From Entophlyctis helioformis (lineage: Eukaryota > Chytridiomycota > Chytridiomycetes > Chytridiales > Chytriomycetaceae), in assembly GCA_025526915.1 (NCBI GenBank), contig JAHLKH010000049.1:1-64000 (forward strand): a DNA stretch of 64,000 nt. Direction: 5' to 3'. Positions 5,913 to 15,913 of the stretch are shown here, in pieces. Below the pieces are notes generated by a model. It was not told where the DNA came from and did not search any database. It worked only from the letters and a program-made list of their open reading frames with translations. The position numbers were made by a program, and so were the translations under genes. The first letter of the stretch is position 1; every line of letters begins with the position of its first letter.

Positions 5913-5955
5913 TGGGAAAGGTGGAGAAGAAGGGCCCGGTTCCCATACCATTACC

Positions 5956-6035
5956 CCTGGTGGAATATTCCTGATTGGTCAACTCCTGGTGGAATCGCTG
6001 TGATTGGTGATCCTGGTGGAATCGCTGTGATTGGT
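5956..6035. promoter_or_regulatory. Three near-identical 24-bp units each ending in an inverted CCAAT box
   Basis: Units begin at 5956, 5985 and 6012. Each starts CCTGGTGGAAT and ends TGATTGGT, which reads ACCAATCA on the other strand, toward LIN1. They lie 44-123 bp upstream of the LIN1 start codon. CCAAT boxes bind the HAP/NF-Y complex. The repeats are seen; a role in LIN1 transcription is inferred from position. Confidence 0.6.
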
Positions 6036-6059
6036 CGATCTAGAGAGCCCTTGCAGGTG

Positions 6060-8210
6060 CTGACACTGCGCGATGCGAGCACAGCAGCAACGCGCCATGC
6101 CAGATCCAGACGCTGCTGCACTTGCCGCCCAACTGCACACAAGCAACAACGAGCCAAACGACAACGACGGCAACACGCAGGCGACAGCACGGATATGGGA
6201 CAACACTCGCTTGCTGGACGAGTCCTTCAGGGGAGACGGCGAGGCTCACTGCTCATGGTGGCATGCAGCAGGCCGTCGAGCAGGCCTGCAGCAGAGCAGC
6301 GTGGTCGTGGCCGTCTGAGAGGCGTGTCCAACAAGGCGGGCGGACAGAAGGCAGGCTGCAGACAGGCAAGCAGGTGCGTTGACTCGCTGTCTGTCCAGGC
6401 ATGCTCCATTGCCATGACGACGACGGCACAGCAGTCTGACGGCCGTGTCTGTGTGGTCTTGGCACTGACTGTGTGCTGTCTGATGGCTCCAAACAGCAAG
6501 GGACGTTGGCAAGACGGCCGTGAACAGGGCGATCTGGCTGTTGTTCAAGAGGACAGCGAGAGCATTGGCATCGCAGGACCAAGCTGCTTGGTGCTTTCCG
6601 ACTGCGACATGGGATGCAGCAGCAGCAGATGAGCAGCCACTGAGACGTGCTCAATGGGCCGATCCTTGGAGTTGGCTGCAGGAACTGCTTGCTGGACAGC
6701 TGGATTGGCATGCCAACTTGGATGCCAAACAGACAGTGGCAGCACACTCGACGAGCAGCACACTCGGCAACACTGATCCAGACGAGATTGGTGAGGAGGA
6801 CGCGAGTTCTGGCAGGCGTGTCTGGCCACATTGCACTTGGTGCGATGGCATCTTGGATGCGATCCACTGAGCAGCACATGGAGTGGCCAGACAGACCAAG
6901 CACTCTCCATTCATTCAACAACCACAACAACGACGATGATGATGGCGACGATCCTGACTACCCAAGTCTTGCATGCACTGTGCTTGTTGACAAGGACGAT
7001 CCAGAGCAGAGGGGCGATGCAGGCAGTGCGCCAACGGCCAACCTGTCCATGGACCATCCGGCCAGTCAGGCTACACCAACTGCATCGCACTGGGTCACAG
7101 GACGATTGTTGGATGCAGTGGGACATTGACTGAGAAGACGACACTCGGAGAGGGGCTTGTTGCAATACTAGAAGAGATCCTTGTGTCAGGACGATCCAAT
7201 ACGGTTAGCGGTCATCACAGGCAATCTGGTGCTTTACAGCCAGAAGGCTGCTGGCAAACCATGACTGCTTGGATCGGCCTGACCTTGAAAGACAGCACTT
7301 CATTCCCATGACTGTGCCACCAGAAGTCGCAGAGTACCCCACCAAGTAGAGCAGGCCCAATGGATTCTTTCCCAGCATGGATGCCTCTGGGCCATGCCAC
7401 AGGCTTCCATGGTGACGACGATGATATCCAAGGAATGCAACTGGTGAACAACAATCGAGCTGCTGTCATTCATTGAGATTGCAGACGGCCCTCAGAAGTG
7501 CATCCAATGCGGCCAAGTGTCTCGCATCAGCACGATCATCAAGGGCTTTGACCCACAGCGACTGGAGAATGGCGGCAATGGTCCCTCTCTCAAAGGGAAC
7601 CTCGGCAGCCATGTGGCATGGGTGGTGCCTCTCAAAGACATTGGCAAGCCTCTTGGCATGGTCTCATGCCTCCAAGACCGCAGCAATACTGACTGTGTGA
7701 TGCACTGCAAGGCAACCGAGATCACTCTCTCGTTCAAAGACAGCGTCTACCAACTTGACTTGCATAGTGCAGAGTACAGCAAGCAGAATGCCTGATCACC
7801 CACAACACAGAATAAGCAGTGCAATCACCTCCAAGACGGGCTGCGTGCCAGCCTCAAAGTGGAGACGATCTGCATCAACAGCATCGCTGCTCAGAGTGGC
7901 ATGGCAATCCAGCCAAGAAGAATGAAGTTGAAATCAAACCAGGCGTCAACCTGAACAAAAGTCAATGCGAGCCAGCCAGCCAGTCAGCGGCACGTGCACG
8001 GTCGTGGATGAGAACACACGCCTCGTGACAGATCCATGCCACGAGATCCACAACAAACATGGCTGTACTGGTGGAAGAGGCGGCATTGTGGACCTTTTCA
8101 AAGACTTCTGATTGTCGGCTGTTTGGTCAAGCAATAAAAGGCGAGTTTGCTCTTTGCTTGCCCCAACTGTCTGCAACCGCACTGCCTGATCTGACTTTTG
8201 CCGAGGTCTG
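6060..8210. other. About 2.1 kb without a supported gene
   Basis: All six frames are interrupted and no run of exons with matching phases was found. The longest plus-strand stretches (6647-7129 and 7517-7795) match no family I recognise. Two short segments about 450 bp apart look alike when translated: one near 7280-7345 (LTLKDS then VAEYPTK) and one near 7720-7790 (LSFKDS then SAEYSKQ). This hints at a decayed internally repeated coding sequence or old mobile-element remains. Nothing firmer can be said. Confidence 0.3.
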
Positions 8211-8220
8211 CGTCTGTTGA

Positions 8221-8237
8221 GAGAGATCTCTCGAGAG
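8221..8237. repeat. Two overlapping perfect palindromes
   Basis: GAGAGATCTCTC (8221-8232) overlaps CTCTCGAGAG (8228-8237). Both are perfect inverted repeats with no spacer, 250 bp upstream of the XPG-Fanzor start codon. Such a site could bind a dimeric protein or be an element end. Function is unknown. Confidence 0.4.
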
Positions 8238-8371
8238 GCAAGTTACAAACCCCACTGCCTGTGCACTCGGCGCATGATAAGAATCCCAGCTCACAGACTA
8301 TCAATCCTCATCGCTCAGCTTCCAGCGACGCACGCCGGCACACCGCCGGCACGCAGGATGCAGGATCGCAG

Positions 8372-8484
8372 GCACGATCGCTCGCAGACACACAGGATCG
8401 CACGATCGCACACAGGCACAATCGCAGGCACGACCGCACACAAACAAACGCACGATCGCACACACAAACAATCGCACGATCGCA
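8372..8484. repeat. Repeated GCACGATCGC motif in the leader of the XPG-Fanzor gene
   Basis: The motif GCACGATCGC (core CGATCG is self-complementary) occurs four times between 8372 and 8484, separated by CACA-rich spacers, and ends 5 nt before the ATG at 8489. The array is unlike any other leader in the window. It may be a protein-binding site or just simple sequence. Confidence 0.5.
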
Positions 8485-8488
8485 CAAC

Positions 8489-11400
8489 ATGGGGGTCATT
8501 GGGTTATCTGCACGTGCCACAAAGGCAAAGTCCGTCGGCGTATACAACAAAGACGTGCCTTGGTCCCAGATCGCGCAGCTTGTGCTTGCCAATGGACTGC
8601 ATTCACGAGATCCAAACGACACCGAGGCGACCACATCCAGCATTACGGGCATCTTCCTCGTCGATGCGGTGAGCGTGCTCTATCCGCACTTCAGGGGGGC
8701 AGGAGAGCGTGATCAACAACCATCCACAGCCGAGTGGGTGACCGTCCTCACGCCCGTCATCGAGTCGCTTATTGACAAGTTCGGTGACGAGCACACATAC
8801 ATTTTTCATGTGGACGGCCAGAACGGCGATTCTGGGATCAAGACTGTGCACAAGGGCCGTGCCCAGCAAGTGCTGCATTGGACGGGCGTCGTCCTACGGT
8901 GCATTCTCAAGCGCCGCAAGGGCAAGCGATGGCGGCATCTGATGCGGTACGTTCACTTGTTTGTGTCGCATTGAGACTGTCGCATCAGACGATTCTAACA
9001 TTTGGTTGATGATCCAGCAAGGAGCGGCAAGCTCTGCAACGTTCATTCACATTGACACAGGCCGACAAGGGCAACATCAAAAAGGCGATCGCGGAGATTC
9101 TCGGCTCTGGGTCTCGACACAAGGTCTGTTGGTGCGACCATGAGGCGGACGTCTGTATTGCCCGCCACGCTGCCAAGTATGCAAGCAATCCAAGGTATAG
9201 ATCGCCATGACATCTGTCTGTTATGATTGACAGCTAACAGTCTTTGTCTCGCATCAGCAACACGCCGATGGCCGTCATTTGTAACGACTCGGATCTCATA
9301 ATACACTGCGACGGTCGCTGCCCGGTCATCACAACATGCATGCGCAAGGGCGGCCTCAGCCCAATCAAGTCGTATAACCACAAGGGCATTGCCTCCACTA
9401 CCTCGGCCTTGAGGGTGTACAATGTCCCCTTGGCAAGCCGGTTGGTCGCCGCCATGTCCAAAAACGACTGTCACAACTGCCCTGACCGTGGTTCGTGCAA
9501 TGCGTGGCTTCATGCTCTGTATTGTCATCCATGCTGCAATGCCGACTAACTCGCCTCGCTACTCCCACTGCCTGGAAGGTATTCCTGCTGCCTCCAAGTT
9601 CATCAACGATTTTGTCGATGCCGAGGCAAGCAAGGCGGGCTTTGACGATCCAGCCAAGTATTGTGCTCAACTCCACGAGCCCGACAAGGCCGAGAAGTTT
9701 TTAGAGGCAATCAGGATTGCATACGTCAAGGATCTGTGGAAGGTTGGAGGCGAGGCTCTGGTCAAGTCGTTCTTAAATGCATTCGACGTCTTCATCAATC
9801 ATGATGAGTCGGGGGCATTGGCCAAATCATTCATAGCCCCGACTGGCTCCAGCAGCCCATCTGGCAACGCACCTGTGCAGAGGCAAGTCATTGCGTGACT
9901 GGCTATGGCATGGTGGCATGGACGCGTTTGCATGCATAGCACCATACTGACCATCCATCGCAACATGGCAATGACAACAGCACGGCTGTTGACAGGACTG
10001 CCACGCCTCAAGCAAGGTATGCATGCACGCATGTGATCTCTTGGTGTGTCTCGCATGACTAACTCGTCATTCCTGTCTTTGATGCCATTGTTGGATCGTG
10101 ATGCAGCTGTCAGCTACACGCTGGATGCGTCCTTGTTCATCCCAAGTCGCAGCAAGGCAACCGCGATCCCAACATTGTCCACCTTACGCGGGATGACATT
10201 GGCCGGCACCTCGACAGCATTGTCAAAAACGCCGAAATGGCCACTACGCTGGAGGAGGTCAAGCGATGTCCTGTCGCGTTCAATTGCATCGTCAAGCATG
10301 CGGCAGGTCGCCTTGCCGGCAATCACAATGGAGTCGTGGGCCGTGACGTTCTGGCGACGATCAGCAGGGCGGCAAGTGCGCAACTTTTTGAGATTGTCCG
10401 CGAGACGTCTCCTGCGGTGGAAGTGCGTGCAGAGTTCAACAAAGCAAATCAGACCATTCGGCACACACTTGTACGTTGCTGCATGACTTGGATGCATGTG
10501 CATATCTTGCCTTGAAGTGTCTAACTCGACCTACTGCCCGCTGGACAGAAAGCTGCTAGGGTGATTCAGAGGCAGTTGAACAAGATCATCCATCTTGCAT
10601 GCGTACCGTTCCGGCGTCTATCGACTCCGAGTACGTCCTGCTTGCATTGGAGTGATGTGACATTGTGTACTGACAGCACCTTCTTTGTCGACCATGCCGT
10701 TCCAGACCCAAACAAACAGAAAGCCAAGTATAAAGCAAAGGCCAACACCCGAGGCGTTTCCTCAAAGACATTTGCGGAGATATGCAGCAATGCCAGAGAC
10801 AAGCTGAAAACCCTGAGAAACCACGAGGTTCTCAACTCGATGACACTTGTCGAGCAGTGGGACGAGGCCATTGAACTGCTAGAGTCAATCATTGAGCAAG
10901 CCGAGGTGCGTCTTAATCTTCACTGCCTGTGTGTGTGCATGCAGTGACTTGGCACGATCACTCATTGCTCCACTCGGCAGGAGGCTCAACATGCAAAGCA
11001 GGGCAAGCAACAGCAACCATCCACCGACGTTCAGGCTGGTCAAGAACACCGCGAGGTCTTGAATGTCAATCAAGCTGCTGACACCAAGACGACGGTTAGT
11101 TCTGGCGCATCATTGGTACTCGCATATGCATTGCGTGCACTCGGAATGCATTGCTCATGCTGCGTCCAACCTCCACAGGCACCACGCCAACTCACAGAGA
11201 AGCAGTTGAACGCGCTCAAGAAGAAGCTCGCAAAGGCAGCTGAAAAGGCCGAGGCGAGGAAGGAAAGCAAGGCCAACAGGACAAAGTCAGGCCGGCTTGC
11301 CCGCAGTAGTATACCTACTGGCTCGAGACGGGTGTAAGTGATGTATGCTCTGCCACGGGTCTTGAGTATGCTTGCTGACATGCGTGTTTTTGACAGATAC

Positions 11401-14400
11401 GTGTTTCGCTCACGACGGGCACTACGTTTGAAGCTTGAGAAGATGGGCCGCATCATTACAGCGCGATTCATGACCCTCGTTGCGGCCATCGGTGAGAAAG
11501 TGCGAAAATCTAAAAGGATTGCGACCAACCGACCTGCTGCGACCACAACCAATCGACCTGCTGTTGATGAGACTGATTGTCCAAGCTTCAGGAAGCTGCT
11601 GCAGGTACGATTTAGGATGCCATTCTGCCTGTCTGCATTGCTTTGCATGTGCTGACTCAGAGGTTGGCGTGATGTCCAGGCCTTGTTGTCGAGTGACTCA
11701 AAGAGCATCAAGGTGCTCGGCAGCGAAGCCAGGAAGACGCCAAAGAAATGGACGCGCCGTCTGATCGTCGAGGACACATTTGCAAAGGTGTACTCGTTCA
11801 CGGTCGGTGCTCGGCAAGCCGGGCTTATTGTGATCGGCGCCCTCATTGAGGATCTGCTCGATCTCGACCTGGATGCGCCGCTCCCCCCCAAGTACCACAT
11901 GTACAAGTGGTTCGAAGGAGAGCAGGTCAGGCACTGTTTCTTGGACCTTGACTTCAAGGGCATCGACAACTCAACGACTGCGACGGCATCGACGGCCTCG
12001 GCGGCGTGACCAAGGCGCAGTTCTTGTCTGGACAATTTACCCTCGGAAAGGACGTCCTTGCACGCCTCATGTACGGTTCAAGTTGTTACAATCAGGAGAG
12101 CATGGACCCTCGCTTTGGAGACCCGGTACAGCTGGCAACGGGCACGACGCTCGAGATCTGTCTGCACGAGAAGGTCGAGAAGCCCAAGACGGCCGAGGAG
12201 TCAAAGGACACTGAGGATGACGAGGACGCCGAAGAGTATGAGGATGACGAGGACGCCGAAGAGTATGAGGACGTTGAGGATGTCGATGAGTATGAGGACG
12301 CCGAGGACATTGACGATGCTGAGGACGCCGATCAGCCCGACATTCACGAGCAGCCTGAGCAGCAAGCAGCAGCAGGAGCACCAGCAGTGCCGACAGCCAA
12401 CCAGCTGCTCACGGCATTCATCAGCAGCACCTCTGGTGGCGAGACGTCCGTGACCTGCATGCTGCGCCACTTGTCGTACATCTTTACTGGCAAGCAGATG
12501 GCTAAGCCAGATTTGAAGATGGAGACGACCAACGCGTGGATCGTCACGGCCATGCAGCTGATGTTCCATCGCGAATGGACGCGGGGGATGGTGCACACCA
12601 ACGCGGTCAAGGTGTATGAGACCAAGAAAGGCAAGCAGCAGGACGTCGCGATCCCGAAGGACATGCGGCAGGACGTCGCGCAACAGCCGGCTCTACCATA
12701 CCTCCTGGACGGCAGCTTCTGCCCGGACGCAGTGAATGACATCTTTAGCAACCTCGCCAGAGAAGTGTGCACCATACTCGCACGGCACTACATTGGAAGT
12801 CAGTTCGACCTGGCGGTTGATGCGGCCCTCCAGCTGGTACCCGGTGCATCTTACGCGCAGGCAGTAGCGTGGGTTAAGCACCTGAAACAGCAAGCCAAGG
12901 ATGCCAAGGCTGCTGTTGCCAAGCGTGCTGCCACCGACAACACCGAGTCAGGACCATCGGCGGCCAAGAAAGTGAGGTGCGAGAGCGTTGCGCCAGCCCC
13001 ATCGACGGCCGCTCAGGATGCCACCCCTTCTAAAGCAACTCACAAGAGAGACCGGTCCAGCACTCCGTCAGCCAATGAGGGTGCTGCGAACAAGAAGCCA
13101 TGCCGCAAGAAGGCTGCCAAGGACGCCACGTCAAGCACGCCTTCAGACACGGAGGGCAAGGTCACTGTCGAGCTACCGCCAGCGTTGGACGTGCTTGCTG
13201 CAATCATGCTTGATGAGTCGCTGTCGCAGATCGGAAGGTTCAACGCGCTGGTCAACCTTGGTGGACGAAGGAGCATCAAGCTGTGCCCACAGCCATCCAG
13301 CCGCGATCCATTCGTCCTTGTCACCGAGACCACGCTCTTTTGGTCGGTGATGGGGACAAAGGATGAGCGCATGAATGGCAAGCAGGATCCAGCACTGAAA
13401 GGATTGCGAAAGCGTCTCCTGGCTGCGATCAGCAGTAGGTCGCACTTGTTTATGCCATGCTTACATGATGAGATACTAACACTCCACTCTTCTCAAAGAG
13501 CCTGGCTCACAGGCCTTGACACTCGAGTCATTCAACAGCGAGATCGAGCGCGCGTTCAGCTCAAGCCGCGAGCTGTGCGTCATGGACATCCTGCTTCCTG
13601 GACTCGCCTCGGACAAGCGACGGTATCAAACGCCGGCAGAGGCCCAAGCAGATATGGACGCGGCCAACGCCAAGGCAAAAGAAGACGCCGAAGCCAAGGC
13701 GACGCGAGAGGCCGAGGAGTGGCGTCTGGATGACAAGGAGCGCGAGGAGCATATCAAGGCTGCGATCAAGGCCGTGCGTCCAGCGAGACCAACCAAGCGG
13801 ACACGGCTGAGCAGCGTCATGACGGATGGATACACCATCTGCCAGCTGGCTCTCGATTATCGCACAGACCGTCTAGAGTCGCCTGCAGTATGTGCCGTGC
13901 TTGAATGTTTTGGTGTACACATTGGTTCTGACCACTGCCTTGCTCTGCAGGTTCCAAACGAGCATCCAATAAGGCGTTTTCTGCCCAGCTTCAAAGCCTC
14001 ATTGATGCGACTAATACTGGTGACTGCGAGCCTGATTACCTGAATGGCACATGTGAGTTGCTGTGCCAATCCAGACGCCACTTGTTGTCCACACCGACTG
14101 ACATGCCATCCACAGCTGCCAATCCAGCCGACCCATCAGCCACCAAGCAAAAGCGACCAATCCTGTAAGCCACTTGCATGCTAAACTCGCGCATTGGTGC
14201 ACTTGCATTGCACATTCCTCACTCATGCCATGGCATGACAGGCCCAGCGCAACTTTAATGCATCCCAGTGGCTGCCCAATGTTGCTGATGCCAACAATCT
14301 GTTCACTAACCAAGGCTATGAGACTGTTCGTGTTGTCAGCTTTGACTGGGGCGAGCGGTACCTGTATGGCGCGTCCAGCATGCTGGTCAATGTCGAGGAC

Positions 14401-15338
14401 GAGACATACACGATGGAGTCCAACTACGTGCTCTCCTCTGGCATGGCACGAGCCGAGCACAGCCTTCAGCGGTGGTATGCATGCAATGACTCTGCCACGC
14501 GCACTCTTGACCAGATCAACTCACAGTGCCTGCCTCTTGTGCCAGGCTCAACAATCGATATGCCAAGGCAGCCGACGTCCACGAGGTTATTGCATTCAAG
14601 ACAGCAAAGCATGCCGATCCAAACGTCAAGCCTGGCGAGAGAGCCTTTTGGGATCTGCGCTGCCATGCGTACTGCTCGCCATTCCTGAATGCACGGGTAC
14701 GTTTTCTCTGTTTCTGGATGCCCATTGCCATGGCCGTCATGCTGCTTGATCGCCTGCTGATCGCACTGGATTGCATGGCATGGCATGGCATTCCACAGAA
14801 GGTCAAGGCCAAGCGGTTCACCAAGCGCAGCAACAGCACGTCTGATCGCGGAAACGCTCTTGAGGGCATCATGAATCTGGCAGGATCAAGACTGGAGAGC
14901 GTGCATCTGATGCATCTCAAGGCCGCTGTGACAAGCCAACAGAGAAGGACATTCCCGTTGTGTGGGCATTTGGCATCGACTTTACAGGCCAAGGTGGCCG
15001 GCACGCTGTGTTTGAGAAGTTTCTCATCAGGCATCTGCGGTCGTCTGAATATGCCTATGTGCGTCTGATGCCACACGCTGTCCATCCATCCATCCATCTG
15101 TGCACCAACTGACCACACAATCATGCACACACCACAGATCTACCGCTGCAACGAGAACCTGACCAGCCAGATGTGCCCGCAGTGCAAGCAGCGGATCCCA
15201 GACGAGAACCGCACCAACCTGCGACGCTACGAGTGCACAGACTGCACGACCGTCTACCACCGCGATGTGCTTGGAGCCACCAACATCGGGATGGTCGCAC
15301 TGGAGCATCTGTTTTTGGACAACGGCCGCTCTACTTGA
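8489..15338 (+). CDS. Predicted fusion protein: FEN1/XPG-type nuclease plus Fanzor (TnpB-like) RuvC nuclease
   Basis: Phase-consistent model of 20 exons, about 1783 aa: 8489-8946, 9018-9194, 9258-9490, 9579-9882, 9981-10016, 10107-10470, 10549-10905, 10981-11094, 11179-11333, 11397-11604, 11680-11925, 12021-13434, 13499-13887, 13974-14052, 14148-14164, 14242-14474, 14546-14696, 14799-14900, 14945-15058, 15138-15338. Residues 1-330 look like a FEN1/XPG nuclease: MGVIGL start, IFLVDAV (D59), FHVDGQ (D109), CDHEADVC (E195, D197), ICNDSDLI (D222, D224), SKNDC (D282), then GIPAASKF like the helix-two-turn-helix. The middle is Lys-rich, with an acidic repeat near residues 740-780. The C-terminus has a RuvC-I-like VVSFDWGERY (D1552), NENLTSQ (E1723), a zinc ribbon (C1730, C1733, C1750, C1753) and HRDVLGATNI (D1760), as in Fanzor/TnpB. 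One intron (9883-9980) is GC-AG. Joins around 13888-14164 and 14901-14944 are least certain. A two-gene alternative is possible, but no stop plus new start is visible between the halves. Confidence 0.7.
12213..12266 (+). repeat. Perfect 27-bp tandem duplication coding for an acidic repeat
   Basis: Two identical 27-bp units inside the largest exon of the XPG-Fanzor gene, each encoding EDDEDAEEY, followed by degenerate Glu/Asp/Tyr copies to about 12330. The unit length is a multiple of three, so the frame is kept. It gives a disordered acidic linker between the two nuclease halves. Confidence 0.8.
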
Positions 15339-15354
15339 CGCACACGCCAGCCGG

Positions 15355-15475
15355 TCAGCCTGTCGTCCAGCAGCCTCCAGCACCGGATCAGCCTGTCGAC
15401 CAGCGGCGTGCAGGACAGCCACAGCGTCCAAGACAGCCACAGCGTGCCAGCAAGTCACGTGCCACTCCACGTGAC
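15355..15475 (+). repeat. Short direct repeats and a CACGTG hairpin just after the Fanzor stop codon
   Basis: Beginning 17 bp after the stop there are two copies of TCAGCCTGTCG(T/A)CCAGC 33 bp apart and two copies of GACAGCCACAGCGT 19 bp apart. A perfect 8-bp inverted repeat GTCACGTG / CACGTGAC follows, with a 6-base loop (15454-15475). In TnpB and Fanzor elements the guide (omega) RNA usually overlaps the 3' end of the nuclease gene, so this is the natural place to look. Assignment as guide RNA or terminator is inference only. Confidence 0.45.
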
Positions 15476-15479
15476 AAGC

Positions 15480-15913
15480 CTATGGCGCACTGACTTGCAC
15501 CACCACTACCAACACTTTGAATCGGGGCACCTCCCGATCGACCAATAGGGTCACTTTATCACACTGTGATACAAGGTGAGACCCTTGTTGGATGTGCCTC
15601 GCCCGCCTGTCGTCGCATGCTCGTTGCTGACTCGAACCTTCCATCGTGTGATATATGGGTTTGCATTCGTCGCCTCTCGGGTCGAATATAACTCCAAAAT
15701 TCTTGGTAATTGTATGAATATCGGGCCGAAGTCTCCAGAAAAATGACAACCTCGAGATCCACTACAGAGTGTAAAGCCAAGATGCCAAGGTGGACAGGAG
15801 AAACACTGCTTCATTGCAGTGGTTGGTACAATGAAAGAAATCTATCCAACAAGAGAAAGGGAGAGACTGGAGACTGGAGACGAGAGGGAAAGGGAGGCAG
15901 CCAGCAGACCGAT
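15480..15913. other. Intergenic 0.4 kb, relatively AT-rich, no gene seen
   Basis: Lies between the XPG-Fanzor gene and the convergent membrane-protein gene. It contains TATCACACTGTGATA, a perfect short palindrome near 15558-15572. A GGTTCGAGTC string on the minus strand resembles a tRNA B box but does not fold as one. No ORF is supported. Confidence 0.5.

Follow-up and report, generated by a model that had tools for sequence, protein, structure and literature searches.

RNA-guided nucleases are known from the transposons of eukaryotes, and their role for the element that carries them is unsettled. In the portions of the sources considered here, genes for the Fanzor proteins, the eukaryotic homologs of TnpB, are carried by elements of several superfamilies, and Fanzor and TnpB proteins share the motif D-X(125,275)-[TS]-[TS]-X-X-C4 zinc finger-X(5,50)-RD (Bao and Jurka, PMC3627910). 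Fanzors further show a displaced glutamate in the form ExxxxxxCxxC, and the wedge domain of Fanzor1 carries a TDG motif (PMC10711439, in the part consulted). Described members include SPu-1-1p, a protein of 633 amino acids encoded in one single reading frame (PMC3627910, same portion), and the Parasitella protein PpFz1, a member of Fanzor1 that carries FRI as an additional domain (PMC11423790, in part). Here, we describe a locus of the chytrid Entophlyctis helioformis at which a Fanzor-like half and a FEN1/EXO1-like half, both of predicted identity, very probably form one fused gene and protein within a DNA transposon. The stretch analyzed, hereinafter the window, comprises 64,000 nucleotides (positions 1 to 64,000 of the forward strand of contig JAHLKH010000049.1, assembly GCA_025526915.1). 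The gene's ATG at 8489 and TGA at 15336-15338 are where an earlier interpretation of the window from its letters alone (the sequence-only reading) had placed them.

Like SpuFz1, a Fanzor1 of Spizellomyces punctatus, itself a chytrid, the locus encodes a eukaryotic TnpB homolog in a DNA transposon with a TDG motif, the RuvC-III RD and a displaced RuvC-II glutamate six residues before a C4 zinc ribbon. It differs from Fanzor1 in showing DWG for DPG, in its N-terminal FEN1/EXO1-like domain, in its 18 introns and in being about three times longer. With the TnpB of IS605/IS607 elements it shares the RuvC domain, the zinc ribbon and a right-end guide RNA, here only a candidate; unlike those elements it has terminal inverted repeats, target duplications and a second nuclease domain fused, and a TnpA was not found. 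PpFz1 provides a precedent for an extra domain in a fungal Fanzor1 protein, although the extra domain there is tied to cyclophilin and is not a second nuclease (PMC11423790, in the portion cited above).

Within the literature searched, which left supplements and subscription papers outside its scope and included parts of PMC10711439, PMC3627910, PMC10432273, PMC11423790, PMC11071296 and PMC6338049, we found no description of a FEN1/XPG–Fanzor fusion. The terms XPG and FEN1 gave no hits in the searched text of PMC10711439 and PMC10432273, nor did XPG and FEN in that of PMC3627910. For large DNA viruses with animal hosts, one sentence in the available part of a preprint speaks of "candidate Fanzor flap endonuclease homologs" (PMC11071296). 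As far as these partial sources go, accessory domains in Fanzor1 are already known (PMC11423790) and the fusion to a second predicted nuclease, of the FEN1/XPG type, is new.

A predicted gene spanning both halves

The gene model, with 19 exons and 18 introns, draws on an alignment of 13 copies, namely the window copy and 12 other whole-gene copies of the same genome (L045-L052 and L059-L062). The FEN1 half, the middle and the Fanzor half follow one another collinearly in all 12 of the latter, in four of which the FEN1 part retains about 30–50% protein identity to the window. Splice dinucleotides and exon phases are largely conserved. At 15 of the 18 introns, every one of the 13 copies has a GT donor; for the rest, intron 1 shows 12 GT and one GC, intron 4 shows AG|GCAAGT in 10 copies and AG|GTATGT in three, and the donor column of intron 12 is displaced by an alignment gap. 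An AG acceptor is shared by all 13 copies at 12 of the 18 introns; at each of the remaining six, between 9 and 12 copies have it. When frames were propagated from the modal exon lengths across 247 exon-by-copy cells, the model frame was open in 211 cells as compared to 67 and 65 for the two alternative frames; hence, its continuity is not a matter of chance.

Copy L052, with its own letters unaltered, stays open for 1,879 codons over all 19 exons, from the FEN1 half to the zinc ribbon, and reaches no stop inside the stretch taken. At introns 2 and 12, the acceptor sites projected onto L052 from the window lack AG; the dinucleotide occurs 3 nucleotides before the projected site at intron 2 and 9 nucleotides after it at intron 12 (where the donor is G|GTAAGT), so that the frame is kept. 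The annotated models found agree with the junctions of our model, with P0002 splicing exons 4-5-6, P0012 exons 12-13, P0008 exons 13-14-15-16 and P0010 exons 13 to 18, yet none covers the whole gene.

The window copy itself is decayed, judging by its exons: 15 of the 19 are intact by comparison with its paralogs (exons 1 and 19 being exempt from the exon-length test), and the frame is broken in exons 12, 13, 15 and 18. The intact frame of 1783 codons with agreeing phases that the sequence-only reading had reported was not recovered, and we infer that it must have bridged these breaks by its splice choices. Its proposal of a one-frame fusion thus holds at the level of the family, where L052 is open across the 19 exons, and fails for the copy on which it was made. 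The accompanying worry about a chimera of neighboring genes is largely answered by L052, by the conserved splice sites and phases and by recurrence at diverged loci.

Certain candidate boundaries were considered and rejected. A conserved stop after exon 4 sits behind a GC or GT donor in all 13 copies. The break in exon 12 is not a fixed gene boundary, its place differing among copies and one copy being open. An artefactual joining of two genes was set aside given the continuity of the modal-length frame and the open copy.

The C-terminal Fanzor-like half

The C-terminal half is predicted to be a TnpB/Fanzor-type nuclease on account of its zinc ribbon, the Bao–Jurka motif, the displaced glutamate and TDG. 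As previously claimed, this half closes with a RuvC/zinc-ribbon part that contains HRDVLGATNI, and the Pfam zinc domain TNB matches with an expectation value (E) of 1.2e-10 in the window and 2.5e-10 in the open copy L052. The NCBIfam model guided_TnpB was found in all five sequences scanned (best 2.5e-7), scoring 26.9 bits against a model cut-off of 100 in the one sequence with bits shown. In an alignment of five C-terminal sequences (A2), the Bao–Jurka motif takes the form D35, 167 residues, T203 S204 QM C207..C210..C227..C230, 5 residues, R236 D237, and the displaced glutamate appears as E200-NLTSQM-C207 PQ C210, invariant in all five. In 10 of the 13 copies TDG falls within the frame that the model gives exon 13; the other three, which are frame-shifted, have it in another frame. 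The gene is also encoded by a transposable element, as are Fanzors. Searching the PDB by sequence with this half returned weak matches only, two of them being LaTranC, and the fold model of the RuvC part has a predicted local distance difference test score (pLDDT) of 41.

The N-terminal FEN1/EXO1-like half

We take the N-terminal half to be a domain of the FEN1/EXO1 superfamily and a predicted nuclease. In an alignment of the window with seven paralogs that are 42–58% identical to it, the seven acids of the FEN1/XPG active-site set (D59, D109, E195, D197, D222, D224 and D282, correctly numbered in the sequence-only reading) are invariant in all eight sequences. The Pfam domain XPG_I_2 (PF12813), of the Asteroid type, matches this half in four of the eight (best E 0.00076). 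When the fold model of the annotated protein P0001 was used in Foldseek, the top 20 hits in the PDB were without exception EXO1 or FEN1 (E from 9.9e-5 to 1.0e-3; TM-score about 0.34–0.43), and those ranked below them included T5 FEN, a plastid-localised exonuclease 1, T4 RNase H and XRN1. The N-terminal motif of the FEN1/XPG superfamily is MGIxGL, with which the starts MGVIGL of the window copy and MGIPRV of L052 may be compared.

The likeness to the FEN1/EXO1/XPG (Rad2) family accordingly lies in the similar spacing of the seven acids (by the human numbering), in EXO1/FEN1 as the top fold matches and perhaps in the MGVIGL start of the window copy. The differences lie in its occurrence in a transposon protein, in the absence of a Pfam match above the curated cut-off and in the arch region, which is longer here in the stretch from D109 to E195. 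With XPG_I_2 the likeness consists of the Pfam matches, although those of the annotated models remain below the family cut-off. The FEN1/XPG identity put forward earlier is upheld by the seven acids, by profile hits that are weak and by a fold model of low confidence, and falls short of Pfam's curated threshold; profile searches of the two ends gave TNB for the C-terminus and, for the N-terminus, a sub-threshold XPG_I_2 in relatives and none in the window.

The host transposon and its copies

By its ends and its recurrence, the host element is a many-copy inverted-repeat DNA transposon of E. helioformis; this context and the decay of the window copy are additions to the sequence-only reading. 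The terminal inverted repeats are imperfect, matching at 18 of 24 positions, a likeness equaled by 6 of 200,000 random 24-mer pairs. The left ends of the elements begin at the position of 5933 and are preceded by unique flanks. The right ends stop sharply at the equivalent of 15727 or, in some copies, past a further short shared stretch, again giving way to unique flanks. Target duplications comprise an exact 10 bp in L059, seven of eight positions in L062 and 9 bp with a 2-nucleotide offset in L061. A second class of right end is seen in L046-L052, where the sequence after GGCC continues ATTTGCC..GCGGTTTGCCGG..CCCACCCCT with small variations before the unique flanks.

Across 10 aligned copies, the left 1.2 kb has many single-nucleotide indels and lacks a clear periodicity by codon; in the four frames examined from the left part, no Pfam domain exceeded the cut-off. 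On these grounds we rejected the idea that the left terminal region contains a gene. The fused gene is the only recognizable one in the elements of about 9 kb that were looked at.

The E. helioformis assembly (29.6 Mb in 482 contigs) contains well over 100 related loci. The FEN1-type piece has at least 199 matching stretches (110 of 420 candidates scored), the zinc-ribbon piece at least 205 (150 of 429 scored) and the exon-12 piece at least 150 (150 of 178 scored). Pairing, defined as a downstream position on the same strand within 14 kb, was assessed for 47 exon-1-type places against 143 zinc-ribbon places and 60 of the 150 listed exon-12 places. Among the matches listed, 19 of the 47 FEN1-type places are paired with a zinc ribbon, 26 with exon 12 and 29 with at least one of the two, as compared to no zinc-ribbon places at the control positions (within 14 kb upstream, or on the opposite strand). 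On contigs C12, C18, C23, C39 and C52 the FEN1-to-zinc-ribbon spacing is 10.3–12.4 kb, as against 5.9–7.0 kb elsewhere, perhaps from nested insertions or adjoining copies. At L033 an apparent partial duplicate of the zinc-ribbon exon lies directly ahead of that exon.

Protein searches returned relatives solely from E. helioformis among the matches listed (seven and five), and scans of viral contigs and of genome contigs found no relatives. A full-length protein search, made with a preliminary splice model that was later replaced, gave no match.

The 3′ region and divergence along the element

About 210 bases ahead of the right end are well conserved and lack a coding signal. Within them, the hairpin at 15548-15584 holds the same place in 25 of 25 right ends (the window and 24 from 31 loci scanned, seven loci being left out where the end motif was absent or the place already taken), and its inner sequence comes in 10 forms. 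Shuffles of the insert folded equally well in at most 7 of 500 cases for seven of the 10 forms and in 29, 30 and 48 of 500 for the rest, with some forms being closely related, so that the 10 are not independent cases. This pattern could fit a structural RNA, such as a guide-RNA scaffold of the Fanzor type.

The elements are mosaics, their ends (5933-7166 and 14040-15727) being about 77–94% alike and their middles (8489-13434) far diverged. Such a contrast would follow from gene conversion about a site that is cut repeatedly. Codon-position constraint is seen in the FEN1 and middle exons, and the exons are strongly diversified between subfamilies.

Between 8947 and 15137 the introns of the window are less diverged than the exons when set against the nearer copies. 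In the comparison with L050, divergence is lower in the intron than in both flanking exons in 17 of 18 cases, the remaining one being tied. Second codon positions differ more than introns in seven of the 12 copies (0.24–0.33 versus 0.13–0.24), are tied with them in L045 and show no excess in the L059 group of four copies (0.34–0.36 versus 0.37–0.38). The low intron divergence may reflect constraint on introns, diversifying selection on exons or homogenization.

Proposed function and alternative explanations

On balance, we lean toward reading the window element as a decayed transposon copy encoding one spliced protein with FEN1/EXO1-like and Fanzor-like parts, which would make an RNA-guided cut, trim the ends and lead to the copying back of the element. 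The mechanism, that is, an RNA-guided cut followed by 5′ processing and repair by copying, is put forward tentatively, as something we would hold to be short of probable. In it, the 3′ region would be transcribed as a guide RNA, the sequence just beyond the right end serving as the guide, and the RuvC half would recut the site vacated by the element or an allele without it. The FEN1 half might then resect the 5′ ends or remove flaps at the RuvC cut, and such 5′ processing would push repair toward copying from the element-bearing template; the jump itself would be made by a transposase probably supplied from elsewhere. We regard as possible, if rather doubtful, the further step to a self-contained homing machine, in which RNA chooses the site, RuvC cuts, the built-in EXO1/FEN1 domain resects and the host copies the element in. 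Were that so, the like ends and diverged middles would be the footprint of the element's own gene conversion. The retention of the fusion through deep divergence in one genome hints at a step after the cut, either end resection or flap removal. That question could be addressed with one protein, which might serve as a model, provided by nature, of how a programmable cut can be tied to the repair outcome.

Several observations tell against this reading or parts of it. The gene model is a prediction from sequence, and introns 4, 7 and 18 had their limits reset with the frames in view, which leaves the frame test not wholly independent. At least one exon is broken in 12 of the 13 copies, and most of the copies seen thus appear to be dead. 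Among the matches listed, 18 of the 47 FEN1-type places are unpaired, with some contigs ending nearby (C78, C236). As to the FEN1 half, XPG_I_2 is the first match in six of the seven annotated models at 13.9–16.9 bits against a cut-off of 24.2, and the seventh has no match to it; neither the window's own N-terminal half nor that of L052 matches any Pfam family; a PDB profile search by sequence gave six weak matches to this half and no nuclease; and the P0001 model, built with seven sequences, is of low confidence (pLDDT 53, predicted template modeling score 0.47). The Fanzor identity proposed earlier is borne out by three published hallmarks, but RuvC-I reads DWG (D35 W36 G37, invariant in all five A2 sequences) in place of DPG, a motif described as almost confined to Fanzors; therefore, by the strict fingerprint, we speak of a Fanzor-like protein rather than a Fanzor. 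As to the element, the target duplication of the window copy is just 4 bp, none is clear in L060 and none was recognized in the copy on C168. A transposase was not found, the left 1.2 kb being without a clear coding signal and the left-part frames without a Pfam domain above the cut-off, in an analysis that covered some of the other elements with these ends. The fold energy of the whole 218-nucleotide 3′ region is not unusual (z -1.37), and the homogeneity of the ends could come from ordinary recombination between repeats.

That the two halves are neighboring genes of the transposon, with the long frame a product of splice choice, would agree with a one-protein model that is predicted from the letters, with annotated models that each cover one part, with P0001 ending directly after the FEN1 half at RQVLA and with three introns having been set with the frame in view. 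We nevertheless consider it distinctly improbable: an unchanged copy is open across all 19 exons, exons of modal length stay in frame all the way from the ATG to the zinc ribbon, the intron-4 donor in either of its two forms (10 of 13 and 3 of 13 copies) precedes the stop that follows exon 4, and the annotated P0002 continues into exons 5 and 6. More weight goes to the fusion as a passenger, doing something else or nothing for an element that is moved by a foreign transposase, an explanation we judge unlikely without dismissing it. Terminal inverted repeats with staggered target duplications are typical of DDE-type transposases, and the repeats together with duplications of 8–10 bp in three copies point that way; moreover, no other gene was recognized and most copies seen are broken. 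Fanzor genes do occur in elements of several superfamilies, by the portion of PMC3627910 cited above. Against a mere passenger, the codon-position constraint and the invariant acids suggest that selection has maintained a function throughout a long divergence.

The fusion might instead be the transposase itself, its RuvC and FEN1 active sites excising and inserting the element whose sole recognizable gene it is in the elements of about 9 kb looked at. This is improbable in our view, since the joining of DNA strands is not known for either FEN1/XPG or TnpB/Fanzor nucleases, and the staggered duplications would fit a DDE enzyme. Bacterial TnpB is also reported to be dispensable for transposition (PMC3627910, in the part consulted). 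Finally, the strong diversification of exons between subfamilies could be taken to indicate a host-favoring or competitive weapon that cuts rival elements via guide RNAs. By analogy with Fanzor, however, the guide would derive from the insertion site and not from a rival, and a domesticated single copy was not noticed, though no search was aimed at one; we hold this explanation to be very improbable.

Coordinates of the element and its gene

Features of the transposon copy in the window (positions refer to the window)
Feature	Coordinates	Strand	Remarks
Whole transposon copy	5933..15727	+	9,795 bp; sharp ends, unique flanks outside, terminal inverted repeats
Left terminal inverted repeat	5933..5956	+	18/24 match to reverse-complemented right end
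Right terminal inverted repeat	15704..15727	-	pairs with left end
GAAG at left end, possible target duplication (4 bp)	5929..5932		
GAAG at right end, possible target duplication (4 bp)	15728..15731		
Left terminal region, apparently noncoding	5933..7166		common to many elements; 92-94% in 9 other aligned copies
Exon 1, FEN1-like domain start	8489..8946	+	D59, D109
Exon 2, FEN1-like	9018..9194	+	E195, D197
Exon 3, FEN1-like	9258..9490	+	D222, D224, D282
Exon 4, FEN1-like domain end	9579..9882	+	next intron GC-AG in 10/13 copies, GT in 3
Exon 5	9981..10016	+	36 nt; earlier acceptor in annotated P0002
Exon 6, link region	10107..10470	+	
Exon 7, link region	10549..10630	+	
Exon 8, link region	10706..10905	+	
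Exon 9, link region	10981..11094	+	
Exon 10	11179..11333	+	
Exon 11	11397..11604	+	
Exon 12, acidic low-complexity stretch	11680..13434	+	frame broken near 11968 in window copy
Exon 13, TDG motif (Fanzor1 wedge domain)	13499..13887	+	length out of phase in window copy
Exon 14	13951..14052	+	
Exon 15	14116..14164	+	frame broken in window copy
Exon 16, RuvC-I	14242..14474	+	motif DWG
Exon 17	14546..14696	+	
Exon 18, RuvC-II region	14799..15058	+	frame broken in window copy
Exon 19	15138..15338	+	displaced glutamate, C4 zinc ribbon, RuvC-III RD
3′ noncoding hairpin, candidate guide-RNA scaffold	15520..15539	+	AATCGGGG..CCCGATC
3′ noncoding hairpin, candidate guide-RNA scaffold	15548..15584	+	place conserved, sequence variable

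Judging by its place in the protein, exon 12 possibly encodes a recognition lobe.

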